From: Chloroflexota bacterium
GTDB lineage: Bacteria; Chloroflexota; Anaerolineae; J102
Assembly: GCA_029782215.1 (NCBI GenBank)
Contig: JAKOVD010000079.1
Span: 18,729 to 82,728 of the forward strand
Direction of reading: 5' to 3'
Length of the DNA stretch: 64,000 nt
The notes beneath the pieces were generated by a model, which saw only the letters and a program-made list of their open reading frames with translations, was not told the DNA's origin and made no database searches. How positions within the stretch are numbered: position 1 is the first letter of the stretch; every line of letters begins with the position of its first letter. Positions 5,170-20,031 of the stretch are shown here, one piece after another. A program made the position numbers and the translations under genes.

Positions 5170-5187
5170 GTAACGCTGTGATACAGT
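5159..5187 (+). promoter_or_regulatory. Possible divergent promoter for CDP-alcohol phosphatidyltransferase gene
   Basis: TTGGGT (5159-5164), a 17-nt spacer and TACAGT (5182-5187) form a weaker promoter-like pair reading right. The expected start of transcription near 5194 leaves room for translation from the ATG at 5243. It overlaps the -35 region of the opposing NYN promoter, so the two could interfere. Confidence 0.3.
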
Positions 5188-5242
5188 GCTTTCGCCCGGA
5201 GGGAACCAGACGTCGGCTCACACTGACTCCTTTGCCGCTTCT

Positions 5243-6517
5243 ATGATGACCAGGAATCCGTTGTTGGAGCCCCCGCTTAGCACCCCCGATGAGAATCGGA
5301 TCGTGCTTGCCCGCCTGCAGCGCGAGTGGCTGATCGCGGCCGAGTTGTACGGGGTGGCGCTGGTGCTTGGGTTCCTCCTGCTCCGCACGCAGTGGGCGAC
5401 GGCAACCGTACTGCGCTGGGGCTTGCTGGCTCTGCTCGTCCAGGCCGAAGTGCTGCGCGTGCTCCGCCGCAGCTTTCCCCTGCATCACCGTCATGGCGAC
5501 GACCGCCTGCTGCCAAGCCTGGGGATGGGCACGGCCTTGACGCTTGTGCGCGGGGGAGCAGTGGGGCTGCTGGCCGGTTTCCTTCTGACGCCATGGCCCG
5601 CCGGGCTGCTGGCCTGGCTCCCGGCTGCCCTCTTCACTCTGGCCGCCATCACCGATGTCCTGGATGGCTATGTCGCCCGTGTCACCCGGTATGATACGCC
5701 CTTGGGCGAGGCCCTGGACATGGAGATCGATGGCCTGGGGATGCTCATTGTGGTGGGCGTCGCCATCCATTTCGGGCAGTTGCCGATCTGGTTTGTCATC
5801 ATCGGCCTGGCTCGCTATGCCTTCGTCCTGGGCATCACCGCCCGCCAGTGGCTGGGCAAACCCGTCCATGACCTGACGCCAAGCCGGACGCGCCGCCTGC
5901 TCGCCAGCCAGGTCATGGCCTTTATGAGCGTGGCCTTGTGGCCGATCGCGCCTCGCCCGCTCCTTGTAGTCGCCGGCGTCGTTCTCGGCATCCCCTTCCT
6001 GGCCGGCTTTCTGCGCGATTGGTTGGTGGTGAGCGGCGCCGTCGACCCGCGCTCACCCCGCTACCAGGCCTTGCTGCAGCGCGCCGGTACCCTGCTGATG
6101 CGCCAGGCGCCCGTCGCCGTGCGGCTGGTGGCGGCTGCCTCGGCCTGGGTGCTGGCGGGCCATCTGCTGTTCCGCTTCGCTGACAGCGCCGCCGCCTTTG
6201 CTGCCGCCGGCTTCCCCTTGTCCGCGGTGGTCACGGCGCTCTTCATTGCCCTCTCCGCGGGCAGCGGCGTTGCCTTGGCGCTGGGCATCGCCGGACGGAT
6301 CTTCGCCGTCCTGTTGATCGCCGTCGCCCTGTTCACGTTCAACGCCCAGGGTCCCTGGCCGGAAACGGCGTCCGCCGTCGCCGCCAGCGTCTATTTGCTT
6401 ATCTTCGGCACCGGCTCGCACTCGCTCTGGCGTCTTGACGATCGCGTGTTCTACCAGCGCGCTGGTGAGGGGCAGCCTCCCGCCGCACCCTCCCCGCCGG
6501 ACGATCCTGCCGCGTGA
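5243..6517 (+). CDS. CDP-alcohol phosphatidyltransferase fused to DoxX-like membrane domain
   Basis: A 424-residue polytopic membrane protein. The N-terminal half carries the complete CDP-alcohol phosphatidyltransferase motif DG-x2-AR-x8-G-x3-D-x3-D (beginning DGYVARVTRYD). The family transfers a phosphatidyl or related group from a CDP-lipid to an alcohol headgroup with loss of CMP. The C-terminal ~150 residues hold four further membrane segments (RLVAAASAWVLAGHLLF onward) resembling a DoxX-type module. The fusion is unusual. The alcohol substrate cannot be read from sequence. The ATG at 5243 is preferred over an upstream GTG at 5186 because the latter lies inside the predicted promoter; no strong Shine-Dalgarno is present. 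The stop overlaps the next gene by 4 nt (GTGA), so translation is probably coupled. Confidence 0.75.
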   Translation: MMTRNPLLEPPLSTPDENRIVLARLQREWLIAAELYGVALVLGFLLLRTQWATATVLRWGLLALLVQAEVLRVLRRSFPLHHRHGDDRLLPSLGMGTALTLVRGGAVGLLAGFLLTPWPAGLLAWLPAALFTLAAITDVLDGYVARVTRYDTPLGEALDMEIDGLGMLIVVGVAIHFGQLPIWFVIIGLARYAFVLGITARQWLGKPVHDLTPSRTRRLLASQVMAFMSVALWPIAPRPLLVVAGVVLGIPFLAGFLRDWLVVSGAVDPRSPRYQALLQRAGTLLMRQAPVAVRLVAAASAWVLAGHLLFRFADSAAAFAAAGFPLSAVVTALFIALSAGSGVALALGIAGRIFAVLLIAVALFTFNAQGPWPETASAVAASVYLLIFGTGSHSLWRLDDRVFYQRAGEGQPPAAPSPPDDPAA

Positions 6518-7524
6518 GCCCGGTCCGCCGCGCGCTGCGACCGCGCACCTTGCCGTGGCTGCTGGCGCTGCTGCTGTTGTTCCTCGTCCTGCGCAACATC
6601 CCCCTGACCGACATCCTGGCCGTACTGCGCCGGCTGCGCTCTTGGGAAATCGCCGTTCTGATCGGCGCCAACGCCCTGATTGTGCTGCTGCTGAGCGGGC
6701 GTTGGTGGGTTTTGCTCGGCAGCCTGGCGTTCCGGCTGCCGTACCTCCGGCTATCCAGCTATCGCCTGGCTGCCTTCTCGATCACCTATGTGACTCCCGG
6801 TCCCCAGATGGGTGGAGAACCTCTCCAGGTTCACCTTGTCCGCCAGCATCATGGCATTCCAGGTGCCACGGCCACCGCCTCGGTTGCCCTGGATAAATCA
6901 CTGGAGTTGCTGGCTAACTTTGCCTTCCTAACATTGGGGGCGATCGTTATCGCTCGTTTCCAGATCGATTTCCAACTTGACCCTGCCGTCTTGTTGGCCC
7001 TCGCCCTCGGCCTGCTCGCCCTGCCCTTGACCTATCTCATCGCCTCCGCACTGGACAAACGTCTTTTCACGGCCCTGCTGGGCCGTTGGCCCCAGGCTGA
7101 CCGCTCGCTGCGGTTCCAACGGGTCTTTCGACTCGTGCAGCAGGCTGAAGCACAAATCGCAACCTTCTACCGCCAGAAGCCACGGGCGCTGCTGCTGGCC
7201 CTCCTGGTCGCGTTCATCACCTGGGCTGCTATGGTGGCGGAGTACTGGCTGGCGGCTCATTTCCTCGGCCTGCCTTATACACCCTGGCAGGCCATTGCCG
7301 CCCTAACCGCAGCACGACTTGCCTTCCTGCTACCGCTTCCGGCCGGTCTCGGCGTCCTGGAGGCCAGCCAGGCCTTTGCCGCCTCAGCCCTGGGCTTTGA
7401 CCCGGCAGCGGGCGCCGCGCTAGCCCTTCTCATCCGTGCCCGGGATGTCACCCTGGCCCTCTTGGGCGCCTGGCTGGCTGCCAGGTATCTGGCCAGCGGA
7501 TCCCCGGCCTCGGGTAAGCCTTAG
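6514..7524 (+). CDS. Lysylphosphatidylglycerol synthase TM-region / flippase-like (UPF0104) protein
   Basis: A 336-residue integral membrane protein with about eight transmembrane segments. It carries motifs of the UPF0104/LPG-synthase membrane region: SITYVTPGPQMGGEPLQ, ASVALDKSLELLANF and FLLPLPAGLGVLEASQ. It lacks the soluble aminoacyl-transfer domain of MprF. Stand-alone members are thought to move lipids or lipid-linked sugars across the membrane. The GTG start at 6514 overlaps the TGA of the upstream CDP-alcohol phosphatidyltransferase (GTGA), which suggests equal expression and a shared lipid pathway. The stop overlaps by 4 nt with the stop of the converging methyltransferase gene. Confidence 0.75.
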   Translation: MSPVRRALRPRTLPWLLALLLLFLVLRNIPLTDILAVLRRLRSWEIAVLIGANALIVLLLSGRWWVLLGSLAFRLPYLRLSSYRLAAFSITYVTPGPQMGGEPLQVHLVRQHHGIPGATATASVALDKSLELLANFAFLTLGAIVIARFQIDFQLDPAVLLALALGLLALPLTYLIASALDKRLFTALLGRWPQADRSLRFQRVFRLVQQAEAQIATFYRQKPRALLLALLVAFITWAAMVAEYWLAAHFLGLPYTPWQAIAALTAARLAFLLPLPAGLGVLEASQAFAASALGFDPAAGAALALLIRARDVTLALLGAWLAARYLASGSPASGKP

Positions 7525-8432
7525 CCCACCCGTCCGGCGACGTCCAGTTGGTGGGTGATGTACACCAGCTCACCGCGCTCGATCTGCTGACGCCGTGCAG
7601 TCGCCCACGCTGCCAGGCGCGCCGGATCGAGGATGGCATCGTCCGCCAACGCCTTCTCGACTGTGTCGATGATGAAGTGCAGAAAATAGGCCTCATCGGC
7701 GGGATAACGACCCTGCTGCGGCAGCACGACCCAATCCGAGCCACCCGCCGCCAACACGATCGCGCCCGCGGTCTGCAGATGCCCGAACAGGCGGCGCCCG
7801 GAACGGTGATCGCCCGATGGCTTCCCGCCAACAAGCCTCCTGTCCATGGTTTCGTGATAGCGCACCTCCACCAAGGCGTCGAAGTCAGCGTCTAGCTCTG
7901 CCTGGAAGGTGGTGACGCCATCGAACGTAATGGTGAAATAGAACAGCCCTGACGGTCGCAGCAGATCCAATAGCACCGGCAGAACGCGGGGAATGTCTAC
8001 CAGGTCAAGGAAGGCATGGGCGATCAGAAGGTCCCAGGCTCGACGGCCGCGCCAATGTTCGGCAAAGGTGAGGGCGTCGCAGGCTTCAAACGCCAGCTCC
8101 AGCCACTGCTCTGCCCGCTGCAAACGCATCCCTCCGGACTGGCCGGCGTTCACACCCCAACCATGGTGCCCCGCCCACCCCCCCATCCGCTCCTTCGCCG
8201 TGGCCATCAGCTCTGGGGCGGCGTCAACCAGGGTGTAGCGCCCTGCCGCCAGCAACCGCCAGTCCAGACAGCGCTCAACCATTGTACCGATCCCGGCGCC
8301 CAACTCCAGCACGTCCAGCGCGCCGGTGGGGGGCAACGCGGCAGCCAGCGTCTCCCATACACCCCGATTCAGGGCCCGGTCATCGACCGTGCGCTTGGCG
8401 GCCAGGTAGCGAATGAAGTCAGTCACCGACAC
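7521..8432 (-). CDS. Class I SAM-dependent methyltransferase
   Basis: A 303-residue soluble protein with the SAM-binding motif I VLELGAGIGTMVER at about residues 40-53. The acidic motif II region (YTLVDAAPELM) follows, and LLIAHAFLDLVDIPRVLPVLLDLLRPSGLFYFTITFDG covers motifs IV-VI. The last ~100 residues carry segments such as VEVRYHETMDRR that may form the acceptor site. The methyl acceptor is unknown. The GTG start at 8432 follows GGAGG after a 5-nt spacer; a second in-frame GTG at 8426 is an alternative. It is the last gene of the minus-strand pterin-like cluster, 86 nt after a small membrane-protein gene. Confidence 0.75.
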   Translation of the reverse strand: MSVTDFIRYLAAKRTVDDRALNRGVWETLAAALPPTGALDVLELGAGIGTMVERCLDWRLLAAGRYTLVDAAPELMATAKERMGGWAGHHGWGVNAGQSGGMRLQRAEQWLELAFEACDALTFAEHWRGRRAWDLLIAHAFLDLVDIPRVLPVLLDLLRPSGLFYFTITFDGVTTFQAELDADFDALVEVRYHETMDRRLVGGKPSGDHRSGRRLFGHLQTAGAIVLAAGGSDWVVLPQQGRYPADEAYFLHFIIDTVEKALADDAILDPARLAAWATARRQQIERGELVYITHQLDVAGRVG

Positions 8433-8467
8433 TCCCTCCTCCTTGCTTCAGTGGCTGCACAAACGCA

Positions 8468-8505
8468 GCCGGACAACCCTACGGTTATCCGCATGGTTGT
8501 CCGGC
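8468..8505. terminator. Intergenic hairpin, possible attenuator or terminator
   Basis: GCCGGACAAC (8468-8477) pairs with GTTGTCCGGC (8496-8505) over 10 bp, and the loop contains a smaller CGG/CCG pair. There is no T-run on either side, so it may tune expression between the small membrane-protein gene and the methyltransferase gene rather than end transcription. Confidence 0.35.
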
Positions 8506-8518
8506 ATGCGCTCGGTGG

Positions 8519-8869
8519 CTAGGCGCTCGCCTTCAAGTGGAGATAGGTGACCACGATCAGCGCCACCTCATCGAGCTTGGTGATCCATCCCATTGGGCCG
8601 CCAATGCCCCGATTGGAGACAAAGTAGGCCACGATGGTGATGGCAGCGAACGCGATCAGGGCATAGTGCACCAGCGAACGCTGCTTGGGCAGCAGGTCAA
8701 AGGCGACTGCCACCGTCAGCACGATGTAGCCGATCCCGTTCAGCACAAACAGCATGCCTGGCGGTGTAGCATCGGGGACTCCCAAGGAGCTGATGCCCAG
8801 CCACAGGTGGACGAGTGCGGTGATAGCGCCAAGGATCAGAATGAGAATGCGAAGTGTGCTGCGATTCAT
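8519..8869 (-). CDS. Small four-TM membrane protein, unknown function
   Basis: A 116-residue hydrophobic protein with four predicted transmembrane helices: ILILILGAITALVHLWLG, MLFVLNGIGYIVLTVAVAF, YALIAFAAITIVAYFV and LDEVALIVVTYLHLKA. It has no cysteines and few charged residues outside the loops. I do not recognise a family with certainty. The ATG at 8869 is preceded by GGAGG with a 7-nt spacer. It has its own good promoter (8914-8941) although it lies inside a run of genes in the same direction. It sits between the GT4 gene and the methyltransferase gene, so a membrane role in that cluster is possible but unproven. Confidence 0.6.
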   Translation of the reverse strand: MNRSTLRILILILGAITALVHLWLGISSLGVPDATPPGMLFVLNGIGYIVLTVAVAFDLLPKQRSLVHYALIAFAAITIVAYFVSNRGIGGPMGWITKLDEVALIVVTYLHLKASA

Positions 8870-8913
8870 CGGTTTCCCTCCAGTGTGTGAGCGCCGAAAA
8901 AGACGCGGGCACC

Positions 8914-8941
8914 ATTATAGAGGGATGCTCCGGGCAATCAA
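8914..8941 (-). promoter_or_regulatory. Promoter for small membrane protein and methyltransferase
   Basis: On the minus strand TTGATT (8941-8936), a 16-nt spacer and a perfect TATAAT (8919-8914) form a sigma-70-type promoter. Transcription would start near 8907, about 38 nt before the start codon at 8869. Confidence 0.6.
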
Positions 8942-8966
8942 GTGGCATGCCGAGCACGCTGTCCGA

Positions 8967-10070
8967 TCAAGCCGGCACGGCCGCCTGTCTGGCCAGGACC
9001 CCTTGTTCCAGGAACGTCCTGATCTTGGCGCCGGTTTGTTCCCACGTGGGCTGCTGATCATAGGTGCGCCGGGCGGCCAGCCCGAGCGCGGCCAGCAGTG
9101 CCCGGTCGCTTTGCAGCCTGAGAAGGCGATCAGCCAGTGTCTGGACATCGCCGGGCGTCACCAGAAAGCCGTTCTCGCCATCCCGCACGAATTCACCTGC
9201 ACCGCCCGCCGTCGTGGCCATTGCGGGCAGGCCAAAGGCCATTCCCTCCAGGTACACAATGCCAAAGCCCTCGAAGCTTGATGGCACCGCCAGAACATGG
9301 CTGCGCGCCAGGAATCCCGCTACCCGGGCATCGGTCTGAAGCCCCCGGAACGTCACCGCCGGCCCCAGAGCAGGCTTGCGCGCCAGCGCCTGCATCCGTC
9401 TTGCGTACCCCGGATCGACGCCCGGATTCCCGATGACGTCCAGCATGACAGAGCCTTCCGGTAATCGCTCTAGAGCGGCCAGAAGGGTGTGCAGGCCCTT
9501 CCGCGGGATGAGATTACCCAGGAAGAGCACCCTCAACGGGCCGGGCTCTTTCGCCCTGGCGACGATCTCGCCCTCCGGTGGGACCGCCTGCCAGCGGTTG
9601 CCCGCAGGCGGTGCCACCACCACAGGCCTGCCGGGCCCGATCAGTCTCTCCACCGCCGCCCGGGACGCCTCGCTGTTGCAGACGAAGCCATTGACCGTGG
9701 CCAGGTAGCGGCGCTCGACGCGGGCGTATAGCCAGTTCTGCCAGGAGGGCCAGGCCTCGCTGCTGCGCAGATGATGGACGATGCCGACGAAAGGTTGGGA
9801 GACTTTGGCGCGCAGGCGCCGGTTGAGCCAGAACAGCGAAGGGTGATTCAGCTCATCCTGCAACAGCACATCCACCCTGGCAGCAGCCAGCCGCTGCTGC
9901 CAGGCGCGGTCAAAATTGTCGGACAGATGGCGCCCATAGCTGCGCCACGGCAGCGACAAGACCTCGACCGTGTCGCCGGCACGCTCCAGGGCAGCAACCA
10001 ACTGCCGGTCGTACAGATAACCGCCCGAGAGGGTGTCCAGGCTGCCGTAGACAACCAGGCCCACGCGCAT
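8967..10070 (-). CDS. GT4-family glycosyltransferase
   Basis: A 367-residue retaining glycosyltransferase of GT-B fold. The N-terminal domain begins MRVGLVVYGSLDTLSGGYLYDRQ, with the Gly-rich loop usual in GT4 enzymes. The C-terminal domain has RVLFLGNLIPRKGLHTLL and the sugar-nucleotide motif SFEGFGIVYLEGMAFGLPA, whose two glutamates give the EX7E pattern. Such enzymes move a sugar from a nucleotide-sugar donor to a lipid, glycan or small molecule. It starts 42 nt after the pterin-synthase-like gene in the same direction, so its acceptor may be the product of that pathway (inference). No clear Shine-Dalgarno precedes the ATG. Confidence 0.8.
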   Translation of the reverse strand: MRVGLVVYGSLDTLSGGYLYDRQLVAALERAGDTVEVLSLPWRSYGRHLSDNFDRAWQQRLAAARVDVLLQDELNHPSLFWLNRRLRAKVSQPFVGIVHHLRSSEAWPSWQNWLYARVERRYLATVNGFVCNSEASRAAVERLIGPGRPVVVAPPAGNRWQAVPPEGEIVARAKEPGPLRVLFLGNLIPRKGLHTLLAALERLPEGSVMLDVIGNPGVDPGYARRMQALARKPALGPAVTFRGLQTDARVAGFLARSHVLAVPSSFEGFGIVYLEGMAFGLPAMATTAGGAGEFVRDGENGFLVTPGDVQTLADRLLRLQSDRALLAALGLAARRTYDQQPTWEQTGAKIRTFLEQGVLARQAAVPA

Positions 10071-10112
10071 CAGGAGGTTCTCGCATCCTACCGTCGGGCT
10101 GGCGGTGGTGTG

Positions 10113-10490
10113 CTAACGATCGAGGTCGTATGCAGCCCAGGCTACCGCGTTCTCCCACAGCTTGACGCTGATGGCCGTCACGCTGGGGGCGTAAAGGGCT
10201 TCATTGAGTTCCTCACACAGCAGCCTGCAGAAACGCTCCACGCTCGGGTTCTTGCCCTTGAATGGCGGCAGGTCGTTGATGGTCTTGTCCTTATAGCGGG
10301 CGATCAGGCTGTCGATCTGGGCCTCCAGGTCGAGGAGGTCAATCAGGTAGCCGTGTTGATCCAGCTCCTCGCCTTCAAGCATGACCTCCATCCTGTACTG
10401 GTGAGAGTGGAGTTCGTTCTCGGCGCCCCAGTCGCCGCCAATCAGATAGTGTTGGGCGATGAACTGGCGCTGACTTGAAATGGTGAACAT
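10113..10490 (-). CDS. 6-pyruvoyl/6-carboxytetrahydropterin synthase-like protein, atypical active site
   Basis: A 125-residue protein of the PTPS/QueD T-fold family; the length is normal. The zinc ligands are present: His14, His28 and His30 in the ELHSHQY segment. The C-terminal ENAVAWAAYDLD provides the conserved substrate-binding region. The Cys found in canonical QueD/PTPS (CxxxHGH) is replaced by Glu24 (ENELHSH), and the usual HGH has become HSH. Family members act on dihydroneopterin triphosphate; Cys-less variants have altered side-chain chemistry, as known for PTPS-III enzymes. It is therefore unlikely to be a standard queuosine enzyme, and no other queuosine gene is in the window. 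The upstream in-frame extension is rejected because the family fold begins at MFTISS. It lies between a dehydrogenase and a glycosyltransferase gene. Confidence 0.75.
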   Translation of the reverse strand: MFTISSQRQFIAQHYLIGGDWGAENELHSHQYRMEVMLEGEELDQHGYLIDLLDLEAQIDSLIARYKDKTINDLPPFKGKNPSVERFCRLLCEELNEALYAPSVTAISVKLWENAVAWAAYDLDR

Positions 10491-10551
10491 GGTGGGTCCG
10501 TACAAGCGTGAAAAAGAGAGGGATGATAGCTGGCTTGGGCCAAAACGAGCC

Positions 10552-11565
10552 CTAATAGTAATCCAAAACGACCTGAATCGCCTTCTCCGGCTGCTCATCC
10601 AAAAGCCGGTAGGCCTCTGCCGCCTTCTGAAAGGGCAGTCGGTGTGTGACCAACTGCGAAGGCTTCAGATCCATCGCTAGACGCCAGGCCACAGCCAGCC
10701 GCCGGGCCTTGGTCCACCGGCCGCTCAATGCGGGGTCGATCGTACTGACCTGGCTGCTGAGCAATCTAATGCGGCTGCGGTGGAAACTGCCCCCCAAGTC
10801 GAACGCGTGTCGTTTGGCGCCGTACCAGGAGCCAAGCACCACCCTGCCGCCAAAACCGGTGAGCGCAAGGGCCTGGTCGAGAGCTTCCGGCCTGCCTGAA
10901 AGCTCGTACACAAGATCGGCTCCAAAGGGCTGCAGCTTGCCCTGCGCCTGGACCAGGGACGCCGGCGCCACAGGATCGAGGCAGACGCTGGCGCCGAAAC
11001 GTCTGGCCTTCTCACGGCGAAGGGCGAACGAATCGAAGGTCACCAGGCGCTTCAAGGGCAGCCTGGCCAGCAATGCCGTCGTCAGCAGGCCCACCGTGCC
11101 CTGACCGAAGATGACGACCTGCTCGCCGACAAGAGGAGCGCCATCCTGCAGAAAATTGACCGCTGTCTCCATGCTGGGCAGCAGCACAGCATCGAGAGGA
11201 TCCATGCCCGGCGGCAGCACATGCAGATCCTCGGGATACGCCCAGAAATGGCTCTCGTGGGGATGGAACGCAAAGACGAAATCGCCGTCGCGCAGGGCCA
11301 CATCGCTGCCAGCCTCCAGGACGCGGCCGACGCTGGCGTAGCCGTACTTCAGCGGAAACTCCAGCGTCCCCTCCAGCGCCTTGATGGTCAGATCGACCGG
11401 CAGATCGGCTGGAAACTCACCGCGATAGATCAACAGCTCTGTCCCGGCGCTGATGGCTGAGACTACGGTCTGCACGAGCACCTGGCCGGGCTGGCCTTGT
11501 GGCAGGTCTTCTTCCCGCAGCTCCACCTGCCGGGAGTTTACGAAATAGAGTGCAGTTCGTCTCAT
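10552..11565 (-). CDS. Zinc-type medium-chain alcohol dehydrogenase
   Basis: A 337-residue MDR-superfamily oxidoreductase. The catalytic N-terminal domain includes VVSAISAGTELLIYRGEFP and YGYASVGRVLEAG. The Rossmann domain begins VVIFGQGTVGLLTTALLA, and YELSGRPEALDQAL supports NAD(P) binding. It resembles the BchC-like and 'zinc-binding alcohol dehydrogenase' branch rather than classical ethanol dehydrogenases; the GHE zinc motif and the four structural-zinc cysteines are not evident. The substrate is unknown. The start at 11565 is 10 nt after the stop of the RibD-like reductase gene, and the pterin-synthase-like gene follows after about 60 nt. The position suggests it oxidises or reduces a side chain of the intermediate made by these enzymes (inference). 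Confidence 0.75.
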   Translation of the reverse strand: MRRTALYFVNSRQVELREEDLPQGQPGQVLVQTVVSAISAGTELLIYRGEFPADLPVDLTIKALEGTLEFPLKYGYASVGRVLEAGSDVALRDGDFVFAFHPHESHFWAYPEDLHVLPPGMDPLDAVLLPSMETAVNFLQDGAPLVGEQVVIFGQGTVGLLTTALLARLPLKRLVTFDSFALRREKARRFGASVCLDPVAPASLVQAQGKLQPFGADLVYELSGRPEALDQALALTGFGGRVVLGSWYGAKRHAFDLGGSFHRSRIRLLSSQVSTIDPALSGRWTKARRLAVAWRLAMDLKPSQLVTHRLPFQKAAEAYRLLDEQPEKAIQVVLDYY

Positions 11566-11575
11566 CGCAACACCA

Positions 11576-12313
11576 TCAGCGTTCCATGAGATAGGCTGGC
11601 GCTGGCCAAGCCTCACCGCTGAGTCCGCCCCAGATCACCCAATCCGTCCCCATTTGCATCCCTTGCGGGTGGAGCAATGATGGCACCTCGACCTCGGTCG
11701 TCGCCAGGGGACGTGTCAACGCGGACAGCCCGCCGACCAGGTGAGGGCTGATGGTGACCAACAGGTAATCGGCCCACCGCCCGTTGAGGAAGCTGGTGAT
11801 CACGGATGCACCGCCCTCAACCATCAGACGCCGCACACCGCGCCGCCGCAGCTCGGCCAGCAGGGCGGGCAGGTCAACGCGGCCAGATCCGTCGTAGGGC
11901 ATCCTGAGCACCAGGGCGCCACTGTCTTCTAGCGCCATACGCTTGACGCTGTTGACCTCCGGGCCTGTGGCAATCCAGGGCCGGAGAGGGTGTTCCATCA
12001 GCGCCGCGCCCACTGGAAAGCGCAGATGGGTGTCGATCACGACAGGTCGGGCGTCGCTGCCCTTCACCAGGCGCGTGGTCAGACGCGGGTTATCTGCCAC
12101 CACCGTGCCGATGCCCACGAGGACGGCGTCGTGTGCCGCTCGCAGGCGGTGCGTCAGCGCCAGTGACGACGGACCGCTAAGCGCCATGGCTTTCCCACGG
12201 TGCAGGGCAATGCTCCCATCCAGACTCTGCGCATAACTGATCGTCACCACGGGACGCTTCTCCAGCGGCCCTGCTGCGGCCAGCCCCGCCAAGAACGGCT
12301 CAATCGCCATCAT
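11576..12313 (-). CDS. RibD C-terminal / dihydrofolate-reductase-like reductase
   Basis: A 245-residue single-domain protein of the RibD_C family, without the N-terminal deaminase of full RibD. Signature segments are [31 protein letters not shown] and [18 protein letters not shown]. In riboflavin synthesis this domain reduces the ribosyl side chain of the diaminopyrimidine made from GTP, using NADPH. The ATG at 12313 (a second ATG is at 12310) overlaps the end of ribA by 14 nt, which strongly suggests coupled translation and that RibA supplies its substrate. With no deaminase and no ribB/ribE/ribH nearby, a riboflavin role is uncertain and a different GTP-derived product is possible. Confidence 0.8.
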
Positions 12314-12917
12314 GTGGCGGGCTCTCGATTGTATCCAGCAGGTGATTGAGGCGCTCGGCCTTGGTGCGCAGATAACGAGCATTCTCTGCCGTGGGAATGA
12401 TGGCCAGCGGCACCCGCTCCGCCACCTCCGTGCCCAGTTCGCGCAGGCGCACGATCTTGTGCGGATTGTTGGTCAGCAGCCGCACCGAGCGAATACCCAG
12501 GTCATCGAGAATATGCGCGGCGACGCTGTAATCCCGTTCATCAGCCTGATGGCCCAGCACTAGGTTGGCATCCACCGTGTCATAGCCTTCATCCTGTAGG
12601 TTGTAGGCCCTTAGCTTGTTCAACAGGCCAATGCCCCGTCCCTCCTGGCGCAGATAGACCAGGGCGCCTCTTCCTTCAGCAGCGATGAGGGCCATCGCTT
12701 GCTGCAGTTGCGGACCGCAATCACAGCGCCTCGAGCCAAGGACATCCCCTGTGAAACACTCCGAGTGCACCCGAACCAGCACCTGCTCCTGATCTTTGAC
12801 ATCTCCCCACACAATCGCCAGGTGCTCTTTGTCATCGTCGCTGTTGGCATACAGGCACAATCTGCATTCACCGGCATCGGTGGGGATGCGAGCGCATGTC
12901 AGCAGCCGCACTTCCAT
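12300..12917 (-). CDS. ribA: GTP cyclohydrolase II
   Basis: A 205-residue GTP cyclohydrolase II, close to the length of the stand-alone E. coli enzyme. It opens the imidazole ring of GTP to give 2,5-diamino-6-ribosylamino-pyrimidinone phosphate with formate and pyrophosphate. Zinc ligands Cys54, Cys65 and Cys67 are seen in [18 protein letters not shown]. The catalytic [11 protein letters not shown] and the substrate-binding LLTNNPHKI are intact. The N-terminus has two extra cysteines (ECRLC, residues 17-21). The DHBP synthase half of bifunctional RibBA is absent. The ATG at 12917 has GGAGG 8 nt upstream. The pepF stop lies 19 nt upstream and the reductase gene overlaps downstream, so this is the centre of a transcription unit. 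Confidence 0.92.
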
Positions 12918-17798: not shown

Positions 17799-17825
17799 GC
17801 GGCTGCGGGCCGGTTGCGTCCTCCT

Positions 17826-18659
17826 ATGTTCTCGCCGCTTCGCCGTTCCCATACGCTTCTGTACGCCCTCGTGGGCCTGGTGGGCCTGCTGGTCTTGCTG
17901 CCGGCCCTGAACTGGCTGGCCCACGAGTGGTGGAGCAACGACTACTACTCGCACGGCGTGCTGGTGCCCATCGTGTCGGCCTTCTTTGCCTGGCGTCTGC
18001 TGCCGCGGGTGCAGCGCCGCCCCAGCTACCTGGGCCTGTTCCTGGTCGTGGCCGCCCTGCTGGTCTACCTGGCTGCACTCGCCCAACGCGCCCTGTTTGT
18101 GGCGTCGCTGGGCATGATCGCCCTTTTTGCCGGGCTGACCTGGTACTTCCTGGGCCAGGCGGCGCTGCGGCGGCTGGCCTTCCCCCTGGTCTTCCTCATC
18201 TTCATGGTGCCCCTGCCTTTCGTCGAGGCCAGCAGTCTGCCCCTGTCCATGTTCACGGGCCAGGTCTCCACCCGGGCGCTGCAGGCGCTCGGTTTCGACG
18301 TCATTGTCAACGGCACCGCCGTCACCCTGCCCAACGCCAACCTGGTCGTGGGCGCGCAGTGCTCTGGCCTGCGCTCCATCGTCGCCCTGGTCACCCTTGT
18401 CGCCGTGTTCGTCTACGTCGTCGAAGGGTCGTGGTCCCGCAAGCTGCTCCTGGCGCTTTCCGCCATTCCCATCGCCATTCTCGGCAACACGCTGCGCGTG
18501 ACCTCGCTGCTGTGGGTGGCCAACCGCTGGGGGGCTGAGGCGGGGTTCACCTACTACCATAACGACTCCGGTATCGTCTTCTTCCTGGTCGCCTTTCTAT
18601 GTCTGGTACTGTTCGCCCGGCTGCTCGGCTGCCGGGAGATACGCAGCGACCTCTTGTGA
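17826..18659 (+). CDS. Exosortase
   Basis: A 277-residue membrane protein with about eight transmembrane helices. It carries the exosortase/archaeosortase catalytic triad: Cys179 in AQCSGLRS, Arg224 in NTLRVT and His245 in YYHNDSG. The family cleaves C-terminal sorting tails (PEP-CTERM and relatives) of exported proteins and is usually linked to polysaccharide synthesis loci. An upstream in-frame TTG exists at 17814 but the ATG at 17826 is preferred. No classical PEP-CTERM protein was found in the window. The EpsI-like gene overlaps the 3' end. Nearby surface proteins with conserved LPL-type tails are possible but unproven substrates. Confidence 0.88.
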   Translation: MFSPLRRSHTLLYALVGLVGLLVLLPALNWLAHEWWSNDYYSHGVLVPIVSAFFAWRLLPRVQRRPSYLGLFLVVAALLVYLAALAQRALFVASLGMIALFAGLTWYFLGQAALRRLAFPLVFLIFMVPLPFVEASSLPLSMFTGQVSTRALQALGFDVIVNGTAVTLPNANLVVGAQCSGLRSIVALVTLVAVFVYVVEGSWSRKLLLALSAIPIAILGNTLRVTSLLWVANRWGAEAGFTYYHNDSGIVFFLVAFLCLVLFARLLGCREIRSDLL

Positions 18660-19291
18660 TCCTGGCGGTGTTCACGCTGGCCCTGGCGGTGGTCATCGCC
18701 CTCTACGGCCGCGACCTGTGGCCGGCGCCGGATGGCGCCGGCCATCGGTTGGTCGCCGACATCGACCGTTGGCGCAGCACGAACCGGGAGCGGACAGTCG
18801 AGGCGCGCTATGACTTCACCCTCAACGCCGATCTCAAGGCGCTGCCCCTGCAGGTGGGCGACTGGCAAGGCGCCGACATTCCCCAGACCAACGTCGAGGT
18901 GGCCATCCTCCTGGAGCCTGAGCAGTACGTCTACCGCCGCTACACCCGCCCCGATGGCAAGTACGTCTGGCTCAGCCTGATCGGGAGCCGCCAGACGAAA
19001 TCGTTCCATTCCCCCCAGATCTGCTACACGGCCGACGGCTGGCAGACCGATGTCACCTCCCAGCCCGTAGCGCTGGACGAAGGCAGCCTGTACATGCTGC
19101 GCGTGGATGCCCGCAAAGCCCCCTGGGAACACGTCATCCTGTATACCTTCCTCTACCCCAACTCGCTCCGCCAGGCCGAAGATGGGGCGGTGCTGTTCAA
19201 GGTCACGGCGCCGCTGTCAGGCACGCCGGAGGAAACCGTGGCCCTCGAGGAAGCCTTTCTTCGCGAATTCTTTCACAGCGCTCGTTTGTAG
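18599..19291 (+). CDS. EpsI-like exosortase-associated protein
   Basis: A protein of up to 230 residues with one N-terminal membrane anchor (LVILAVFTLALAVVIALYG). A periplasmic or extracellular EpsI domain follows, with the family landmarks PLQVGDWQG, KSFHSPQICYTADGW and the closing AEDGAVLFKVTAPL. EpsI accompanies exosortases, often fused to their C-terminus; here it is a separate gene. The ATG at 18599 overlaps the exosortase gene by 61 nt. A GTG at 18656 overlaps the exosortase stop as GTGA and is a real alternative, giving 211 residues. I kept the ATG because it leaves basic residues before the membrane segment. The molecular function is unknown. Confidence 0.8.
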   Translation: MSGTVRPAARLPGDTQRPLVILAVFTLALAVVIALYGRDLWPAPDGAGHRLVADIDRWRSTNRERTVEARYDFTLNADLKALPLQVGDWQGADIPQTNVEVAILLEPEQYVYRRYTRPDGKYVWLSLIGSRQTKSFHSPQICYTADGWQTDVTSQPVALDEGSLYMLRVDARKAPWEHVILYTFLYPNSLRQAEDGAVLFKVTAPLSGTPEETVALEEAFLREFFHSARL

Positions 19292-19323: not shown

Positions 19324-20031
19324 ATGAGCACGTTAGAGGCGCCGCTCCTGCCGGCATTTCGGTGGAAGCGATGGCACGGTATGGTCCTCGGTCTCCTGGG
19401 GCTGCTGGTGATCGGGATGCTCGCCTTCGCCATCTTCAAGCCCATCCGCGTCCTCCCGCGCATGCGCCTGGCGCCCGGCTTCGCCCTGCGGGACCAGAAC
19501 AACCAGGTCCTCACCAATGAGGACTTGCGGGGCAAGTTCGTCCTCTACAACTTCACCTACACCGGCTGCCAGCCGCCCACCTGCCGCTCGACCGACGCCA
19601 TCATGCAGGAGGTCTACCAGCGGCTGGGAGAGGCCGACACCGGCGGCGTGCCGGTGTCGCTGGTCACCATCTCCTTCGACCCCGAACACGACACCCCCCA
19701 GAAGTTGGCCGCCTACGCCCAAACGCTCGGCGCCGACCCCGGACGCTGGCGCTTCCTCACCGGCGAGCCCAGCCGCTTGAAGTCGGTCATCGGGGCCGGC
19801 TTCGGCGTCTACTATGAGTCCAAGCCGGAGGGCTTCGCCTACAGCCCCACCCTGGTGCTGGTGGACGGGTTGGGCATCGTGCGCGCCGTCTACAGCAGCC
19901 GCAGCTCCACGCCTGACGCCAACAACATCCTGCGCCACCTGAACGTGCTGGGGGAAGAGGTCAGGAACAGCGTGGGGGTGGGACGCCTGGGCTATGAGGC
20001 TGCCCATCTCTTTCTCTGCTACGCACCCTGA
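19324..20031 (+). CDS. Sco1/SenC-like thioredoxin-fold protein, degenerate metal site
   Basis: A 235-residue membrane-anchored protein (TM about residues 20-40) with a thioredoxin-like Sco domain: LAPGFALRDQNNQVLTNEDLRGKFVLYNFTYTG and ISFDPEHDTP. In canonical Sco proteins copper is bound by CxxxC plus a distant His. Here the cysteines are spaced C-x4-C (Cys82, Cys87 in GCQPPTC) and the position of the His is occupied by a YSP segment (FAYSPTLVLVD). Copper binding in the usual way is therefore doubtful; a thiol-disulfide role is an alternative. It lies 51 nt before a second, canonical Sco gene. The two may work as a pair in cytochrome oxidase CuA-site assembly, though no oxidase genes are in the window. 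Confidence 0.8.
   Translation: MSTLEAPLLPAFRWKRWHGMVLGLLGLLVIGMLAFAIFKPIRVLPRMRLAPGFALRDQNNQVLTNEDLRGKFVLYNFTYTGCQPPTCRSTDAIMQEVYQRLGEADTGGVPVSLVTISFDPEHDTPQKLAAYAQTLGADPGRWRFLTGEPSRLKSVIGAGFGVYYESKPEGFAYSPTLVLVDGLGIVRAVYSSRSSTPDANNILRHLNVLGEEVRNSVGVGRLGYEAAHLFLCYAP

Follow-up and report, generated by a model that had tools for sequence, protein, structure and literature searches.

A set of genes carried on a 64,000-nucleotide stretch from a Chloroflexota bacterium (Anaerolineae; J102; assembly GCA_029782215.1, contig JAKOVD010000079.1), hereafter the window, most likely encodes a dedicated GTP-derived pathway that is distinct from those of riboflavin, folate and queuosine. This reading is based on the genes themselves, their conservation, the fusion of RibA with a RibD_C reductase, the fact that two riboflavin genes were not found in the host, and the occurrence of differing GTP-opening enzymes beside the same medium-chain dehydrogenase (MDR). 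Judging from the gene families, GTP would be opened and rebuilt to a pterin-like compound that bears a sugar and a methyl group and is possibly attached to a membrane lipid, a scheme to which slightly less than an even chance is given. A preliminary description of this DNA had proposed such a pathway: its conserved, GTP-derived character outside riboflavin, folate and queuosine synthesis stands, while the pterin product, its decoration and its lipid link remain predictions from gene families. The genes are the following:

12300 to 12917, minus strand: ribA, GTP cyclohydrolase II, 205 amino acids (Pfam GTP_cyclohydro2, 234 bits)
11576 to 12313, minus strand: lone RibD_C-type reductase, without deaminase domain (Pfam RibD_C, 131 bits)
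10552 to 11565, minus strand: MDR (Pfam ADH_zinc_N, 45 bits)
10113 to 10490, minus strand: PTPS-like T-fold protein, 125 amino acids (Pfam PTPS, 98 bits)
8967 to 10070, minus strand: GT4 glycosyltransferase (Pfam Glycos_transf_1, 110 bits)
8519 to 8869, minus strand: small membrane protein of the DUF7475 family (Pfam DUF7475, 36 bits)
7521 to 8432, minus strand: class I methyltransferase-like protein (Methyltransf_12, 29 bits, just below the cut-off of 30)
5186 to 6517, plus strand: CDP-alcohol phosphatidyltransferase (Pfam CDP-OH_P_transf, 55 bits)
6514 to 7524, plus strand: flippase-like LPG_synthase_TM protein (Pfam LPG_synthase_TM, 133 bits)

Pfam matches and frame coordinates place all these genes where the preliminary description had them, and its spacings are exact: the RibD_C gene starts 14 nucleotides inside ribA, and mdr follows 10 nucleotides past it. 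The remaining gaps on the minus strand, from mdr to the methyltransferase gene, are 61, 42, 97 and 86 nucleotides. The protein first described by its four transmembrane segments is the DUF7475 member. The CDP-alcohol transferase and flippase-like frames overlap by 4 nucleotides, and the pair faces the minus-strand operon. The interval originally delimited, 7521-12917, covers this operon correctly and omits the pair, which accompanies the set in other lineages. An M3 peptidase gene located upstream of the set is not counted as a member.

The gene set is real and conserved beyond chance. A scan of a genome collection with an alignment of 27 PTPS relatives returned 240 stretches containing a relative, the best 80 of which were kept as loci; 43 of them extend at least 4 kb on either side of the PTPS gene. 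The constancy of PTPS in this 43/80-locus survey proves nothing, since the loci were chosen by PTPS. Most of the 80 loci are labelled Anaerolineae or other Chloroflexota, with a few from Desulfomonile, Desulfobacca and Thermomicrobiaceae; loci of Bellilinea, Litorilinea and Thermoflexus are among the scan matches. The 43 longer loci contain a GT4 glycosyltransferase in 39 cases, MDR in 37, RibD_C in 36, a methyltransferase in 34 and RibA in 31, followed by the flippase (18), DUF7475 (16) and the CDP-alcohol transferase (15). RibA and RibD_C form one open frame in 25 of 47 ribA-bearing loci and are neighbours in 19, RibD_C lying elsewhere in the locus in the other three. No match to RibH, FolE or FolB, each represented by one query sequence, was found in the 80 loci.

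The distribution extends to plasmids. The nearest solved structure to the window PTPS is that of SCO6650 (PDB ID 3d7j; sequence E-value 4.4e-8, fold template-modelling score 0.86), and a tblastn search with its sequence yielded 21 plasmid records, 18 of which were examined. Streptomyces, Microbacterium, Rhizobium, Agrobacterium and Methylosinus plasmids carry the set, whole or partial, and that of one Streptomyces fungicidicus plasmid includes a 90%-identical relative of SCO6650. The 18 loci harbor MDR (15), GT4 (14), methyltransferase (14), RibD_C (12), CDP-alcohol transferase (10), RibA (9), flippase (9), cytochrome b561 (7), FkbM methyltransferase (5) and creatininase (2) genes. On Streptomyces plasmids, the SCO6650-type PTPS of loci L152, L161 and L162 has no MDR or GT4 gene beside it, and metallo-β-lactamase-fold, cupin and sigma factor genes lie near.

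With the window MDR as query, 12 haloarchaeal plasmid records were retrieved at 46-54% identity, including Haloarcula, and five were examined. All five carry MDR; PTPS, GT4 and methyltransferase genes occur in four each, the CDP-alcohol transferase and DUF7475 in two each, and creatininase and GTP cyclohydrolase III (GCH III) in one each. RibA and RibD_C were not found in the five loci. GCH III is a GTP-opening enzyme unrelated to RibA, and its frame shares 4 nucleotides with the MDR gene. The three haloarchaeal MDRs tested fall within the Chloroflexota-type group (99/93, 37 rows, midpoint root). The gene order, which might have been peculiar to one genome, is not: the set recurs, whole or partial, in Chloroflexota, on plasmids and in haloarchaea. 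To note, DUF7475, a Pfam family of unknown function, accompanies the set in Chloroflexota and, with weaker scores, in haloarchaea, where a relative adjoins the CDP-alcohol transferase in two loci (L175, 4543-4926; L178, around 6681).

The window RibA keeps the zinc ligands Cys54, Cys65 and Cys67 of E. coli RibA, as well as Tyr105 and Arg128; its GTP cyclohydrolase II active site is intact. Position 105 (E. coli numbering) is a Tyr in 53 of the 56 RibA rows from PTPS loci, a Met in two and a gap in one. Both Met-105 rows, and no others among the cluster RibAs, have a creatininase gene nearby. The Met-type RibA of S. coelicolor is said to stop at the formylated pyrimidine, so that a deformylase would be needed in Met-type loci; the creatininase, from its place beside Met-type RibA, may provide this activity. 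The best model for the Streptomyces creatininase is MftE (141 bits, cut-off 172). The window RibD_C protein has no deaminase domain according to Pfam, no search having been made for a deaminase encoded on its own at another place in the genome. By fold, the MDR resembles alcohol, polyol and threonine dehydrogenases; its best NCBIfam model is BchC (TIGR01202), and assignment as a BchC dehydrogenase was ruled out by a score of 88.6 bits, far under the cut-off of 291. One protein, P0171, unites RibA with MDR in a single chain (one sequence only).

The genome from which the window derives (G000; 98.56% complete, 5.43% contamination) contains a single GTP cyclohydrolase II and a single strong RibD_C, both being those of the window; two other RibD_C matches reach just 72.1 and 69.5 bits. 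No match was found in it for 3,4-dihydroxy-2-butanone-4-phosphate (DHBP) synthase (RibB), detected in 14/14 control genomes, or for riboflavin synthase (RibE), detected in 11/14. The known route to riboflavin is therefore unlikely to operate in this organism. The preliminary description had envisaged that ribA and the RibD-like gene might be the only copies and restore riboflavin auxotrophs; they are indeed the only strong ones, yet with no RibB or RibE match in the genome that case does not hold as worded. A divergent gene resembling lumazine synthase (RibH; 113.7 bits, over the cut-off) is located close to the beginning of contig C84, which is suspected to be foreign. In this locus (L117), the RibH-like gene adjoins a protein with a PEP-CTERM-like tail, as judged by eye.

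A survey was also made of 100 genomes sampled from the class. The PTPS cut-off (E < 1e-30) was set after seeing a score gap from 1.9e-33 to 3.0e-24 and takes in two divergent proteins (G045 and G072); a weak RibH match in G024, below the cut-off, was counted as absent. RibA is present in 24 of the 100 genomes and RibH, above the cut-off, in 11. Among the 89 genomes without RibH, 13 have RibA and PTPS, one has PTPS only (G013), one RibA only (G086), and 74 neither (Fisher p = 1.4e-13, a figure inflated by relatedness, the 13 genomes spanning 8 families). RibA is found in 10 of the 11 RibH-bearing genomes. Two side observations concern RibA genes in this sample. In L153, L154 and L155 (G093, G080 and G025), which lack RibH, RibA stands in a row with a divergent RibD_C and a short-chain-dehydrogenase-like frame, with possibly a CDP-alcohol transferase-like frame in G093; this second RibA group is perhaps another pathway of the same kind. 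An identical RibA occurs in L137 (G086) and L138 (G093), from genomes of different families, suggesting that a contaminant contig is common to both or that the gene was recently transferred.

Two RibA trees were computed, with bootstrap unsettled in both. The first left out rows shorter than 150 amino acids (L139, L140 and other partials), repeats (L153-L157, L160) and L116, L120 and L141, and thereby lacked the RibH-bearing genome G029; rhizobial RibAs were trimmed to their last 230 residues, and a long-branch warning applies to the rhizobial rows and L171. Here the cluster RibAs of Chloroflexota fall into a single group (96/99, 57 rows), including L134 from a RibH-bearing genome as well as the G061 and G072 RibAs, which are located away from PTPS. 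Seven of the eight rows from RibH-bearing genomes (6/7 genomes) lie apart from this group, and the rhizobial and Streptomyces cluster RibAs branch elsewhere. In the second tree, to which G029 was added and from which L171 was removed, the E. coli RibA and the two Streptomyces rows join eight of nine RibH-genome rows in one group (87/62); the rhizobial rows, on a long branch, remain apart. As cluster RibAs branch in several places, the enzyme appears to have entered the cluster on more than one occasion. Taken with the single GCH III beside the same MDR, the simplest reading would be that opened GTP is the first intermediate.

The window PTPS belongs to the PTPS superfamily of T-fold proteins, as its modelled fold and aligned residues indicate; after SCO6650, the model matches other bacterial PTPS and QueD structures. 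The three His of the predicted zinc site and the pterin-anchoring Glu are kept, and the catalytic Cys, whose absence had been noticed beforehand, is replaced in the alignment by a Glu at the QueD Cys position, yielding the motif ExxxHSH. In the portion of review PMC5041015 available, the family motifs are CxxxHGH for QueD, CxxxxxHGH for PTPS-II and ExxHGH for PTPS-III, and the function of PTPS-V is called unclear. Two assignments were rejected: PTPS-I/QueD, the motif being ExxxHSH and not CxxxHGH and the TIGR03367 score 50 bits against a cut-off of 89; and PTPS-III, the Glu lying four and not three residues before the first His, with HSH instead of HGH. Counting repeat copies, the active site reads His-Glu-His-His in 94 rows of the Chloroflexota loci, with Asn for the second His in three and a more divergent site in two (L099, L100). 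It reads His-Ala-His-Ala in 18/18 rows of the plasmid loci, and by eye the haloarchaeal site is of the His-Glu-His-His type. In SCO6650-type proteins, Ala occupies the Cys site and the third His is missing, whereas the window protein has Glu and three His. The pterin-anchoring Glu is kept in all rows covering that stretch except L095 and L100; ligand binding seems conserved across these sequences, metal chemistry not. A Plasmodium PTPS with Glu38 in place of Cys makes 6-hydroxymethyl-dihydropterin, according to the accessible text of PMC2229834; by likeness to this enzyme, the window Glu could be catalytic, which is a lead only.

The proposed route would start with the opening of GTP by RibA, its Tyr105 being kept, to yield a diamino-ribosylamino-pyrimidinone phosphate with release of formate. 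RibD_C would then turn the ribosyl into a ribityl chain, ahead of any deamination. These two steps follow from the enzyme families; the subsequent ones are predictions. The MDR would oxidise one hydroxyl of the side chain, C2' being the simplest position, and the resulting ketone would condense with the 5-amino group to form a 7,8-dihydroneopterin-like ring without FolE. The two redox steps of RibD_C and MDR would in this way stand in for the Amadori rearrangement of GTP cyclohydrolase I. The PTPS-like protein, with its pterin Glu but no known catalytic Cys, may bind the ring and close or remodel it, after which the GT4 enzyme would glycosylate the compound and the methyltransferase would methylate it. 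Finally, and as the weakest step, the CDP-alcohol transferase would attach the product to a phosphatidyl group, and its passage across the membrane would be the task of the flippase-like protein. In its boldest form, which is considered unlikely, the proposal is that one route common to bacteria and haloarchaea makes a pterin from GTP without FolE, through RibD_C reduction and MDR oxidation instead of the Amadori rearrangement, and that this pterin is glycosylated, methylated, anchored to a phospholipid and flipped across the membrane. We know of no class of membrane-bound pterins.

Several observations weigh against the proposed route. The PTPS active site varies between lineages, which makes a single catalytic role doubtful, and a diaminopyrimidine could fit the pterin-anchoring Glu too, so that ring closure is not implied. 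Three Streptomyces plasmids have PTPS without the rest of the set. The GCH III locus has MDR only, without PTPS, GT4 or methyltransferase, and with a transposase gene next to it may represent a remnant. The deformylase role of the creatininase is unbacked by family models, the Streptomyces protein scoring 37 bits against the ArfB model NF033501 (cut-off 180). In the class survey, G045 has RibH and a divergent PTPS and no RibA match, G013 has PTPS without RibA, and G086 RibA without PTPS. Furthermore, RibA is far from PTPS or on another contig in 6 of 14 genomes with both (G025, G055, G061, G072, G080 and G093), and the RibAs of G025, G055, G080 and G093 belong to the other RibA group, adjoining a divergent RibD_C. 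The fork uniting the Chloroflexota cluster RibAs loses its support in the second tree. Lastly, the CDP-alcohol transferase and the flippase occur in 15 and 18 of the 43 Chloroflexota loci, and in two and none of the five haloarchaeal loci, respectively.

The last point bears on the strongest alternative, in which the CDP-alcohol transferase and flippase, neighbours by location only, serve the synthesis of an unrelated glycolipid, and the pathway ends in a soluble pterin glycoside like cyanopterin. Each of the two genes is missing from over half of the 43 loci, and in the window the pair faces the operon. Cyanobacteria are also described, in the text available of PMC3546692, as producing pterin glycosides with an O-methyl sugar. 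Conversely, a CDP-alcohol transferase gene is found with the set, in varying orientation, at some loci of Chloroflexota, Actinomycetota, Alpha- and Gammaproteobacteria and haloarchaea, and flippase-like genes lie beside it in Actinomycetota, Alphaproteobacteria and Chloroflexota. The window CDP-alcohol transferase has the full DxxDGxxAR...GxxxDxxxD motif and exceeds the Pfam cut-off. The product is possibly attached to a lipid, as this gene association suggests, and a soluble end product is a serious prospect, though short of an even one.

In a second alternative, no pterin is formed: a diaminopyrimidine of one ring, bearing a ribityl or keto-ribityl chain, would be glycosylated and methylated, and the PTPS-like protein would bind or isomerise it. 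RibA and RibD_C suffice for such a product, and classical PTPS chemistry is unlikely for proteins without the catalytic Cys, those on Actinomycetota and Proteobacteria plasmids also lacking the third zinc His. However, ring closure is the easiest explanation for a dehydrogenase directly after RibD_C together with a conserved T-fold protein, and the single-ring product is considered rather unlikely.

A folate side route, in which a PTPS-III-like enzyme would make 6-hydroxymethyl-dihydropterin and replace FolB, is improbable. It draws on the Glu at the Cys position, like Glu38 of the Plasmodium enzyme in the part of PMC2229834 at hand, but ExxxHSH differs from the PTPS-III motif ExxHGH as excerpted from PMC5041015, and FolE and FolB matches are present in G000. 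Across the class, PTPS shows no association with FolE (10/16 genomes with PTPS against 40/84 without, p = 0.41), and FolB is commoner with PTPS (11/16 against 22/84, p = 0.002), which speaks against its replacement; a search of the 80 loci with single FolE and FolB queries yielded neither gene. That ribA and RibD_C are ordinary host riboflavin genes lying by chance beside a glycolipid cluster is the least credible alternative: they are the only strong copies in G000, with Tyr105 and the zinc Cys of RibA intact and one RibH-like gene on contig C84, but RibB and RibE have no match there, RibA tracks PTPS in the 89 of 100 class genomes without RibH over the cut-off, and the RibAs of RibH-bearing genomes group elsewhere in the trees. 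The mismatch with riboflavin, queuosine and folate loci remarked on at the outset is borne out by the gene search in G000, the PTPS motif and the genome counts.

The set nevertheless shares parts with known systems. GTP cyclohydrolase II and a RibD_C reductase are common to the riboflavin pathway (RibA, RibD), from which the window differs by a reductase without deaminase domain, the lack of RibB and RibE matches in G000, and the additional dehydrogenase, PTPS, GT4 and methyltransferase. The archaeal riboflavin/F420 route consists of GCH III, ArfB and ArfC. Reduction before deamination is predicted for the window set too, and GCH III lies beside MDR in one haloarchaeal locus; however, the window RibD_C scores below the archaeal reductase cut-off (126 against 186 bits) and the downstream genes differ. 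Toxoflavin synthesis likewise uses GTP cyclohydrolase II, a RibD-like protein and a methyltransferase and, to our knowledge, no PTPS, MDR or GT4. Cyanopterin and tetrahydrobiopterin glucoside synthesis in cyanobacteria is alike in its pterin, glycosyltransferase and O-methyl sugar, but in the available portion of PMC3546692 these pterins are tied to GTP cyclohydrolase I and a CDP-alcohol transferase is not described. Among the open-licence papers listed, which give no proof of novelty, none deals with the gene set, and the part of the main text available for a 2026 review of bacterial pterin signalling (PMC13259868) makes no mention of GTP cyclohydrolase II, PTPS or lipid.

Elsewhere in the window, two overlapping plus-strand frames at 17814-19291 look by eye like exosortase and EpsI-type genes, and a SCO1-like frame comes next, at 19324-20031.

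SCO6650, named in its PDB records only as an uncharacterised PTPS homologue, changes from an isolated structural puzzle into part of a testable pathway with known gene order, natural fusions and many hosts. Some of these hosts are cultured or named species (Bellilinea, Litorilinea and Thermoflexus, besides the Methylosinus and Haloarcula plasmids). Riboflavin or queuosine annotations of such genes are probably wrong, which affects predicted vitamin B2 prototrophy. The lipid step, if true, would define a new kind of membrane molecule common to bacteria and archaea.

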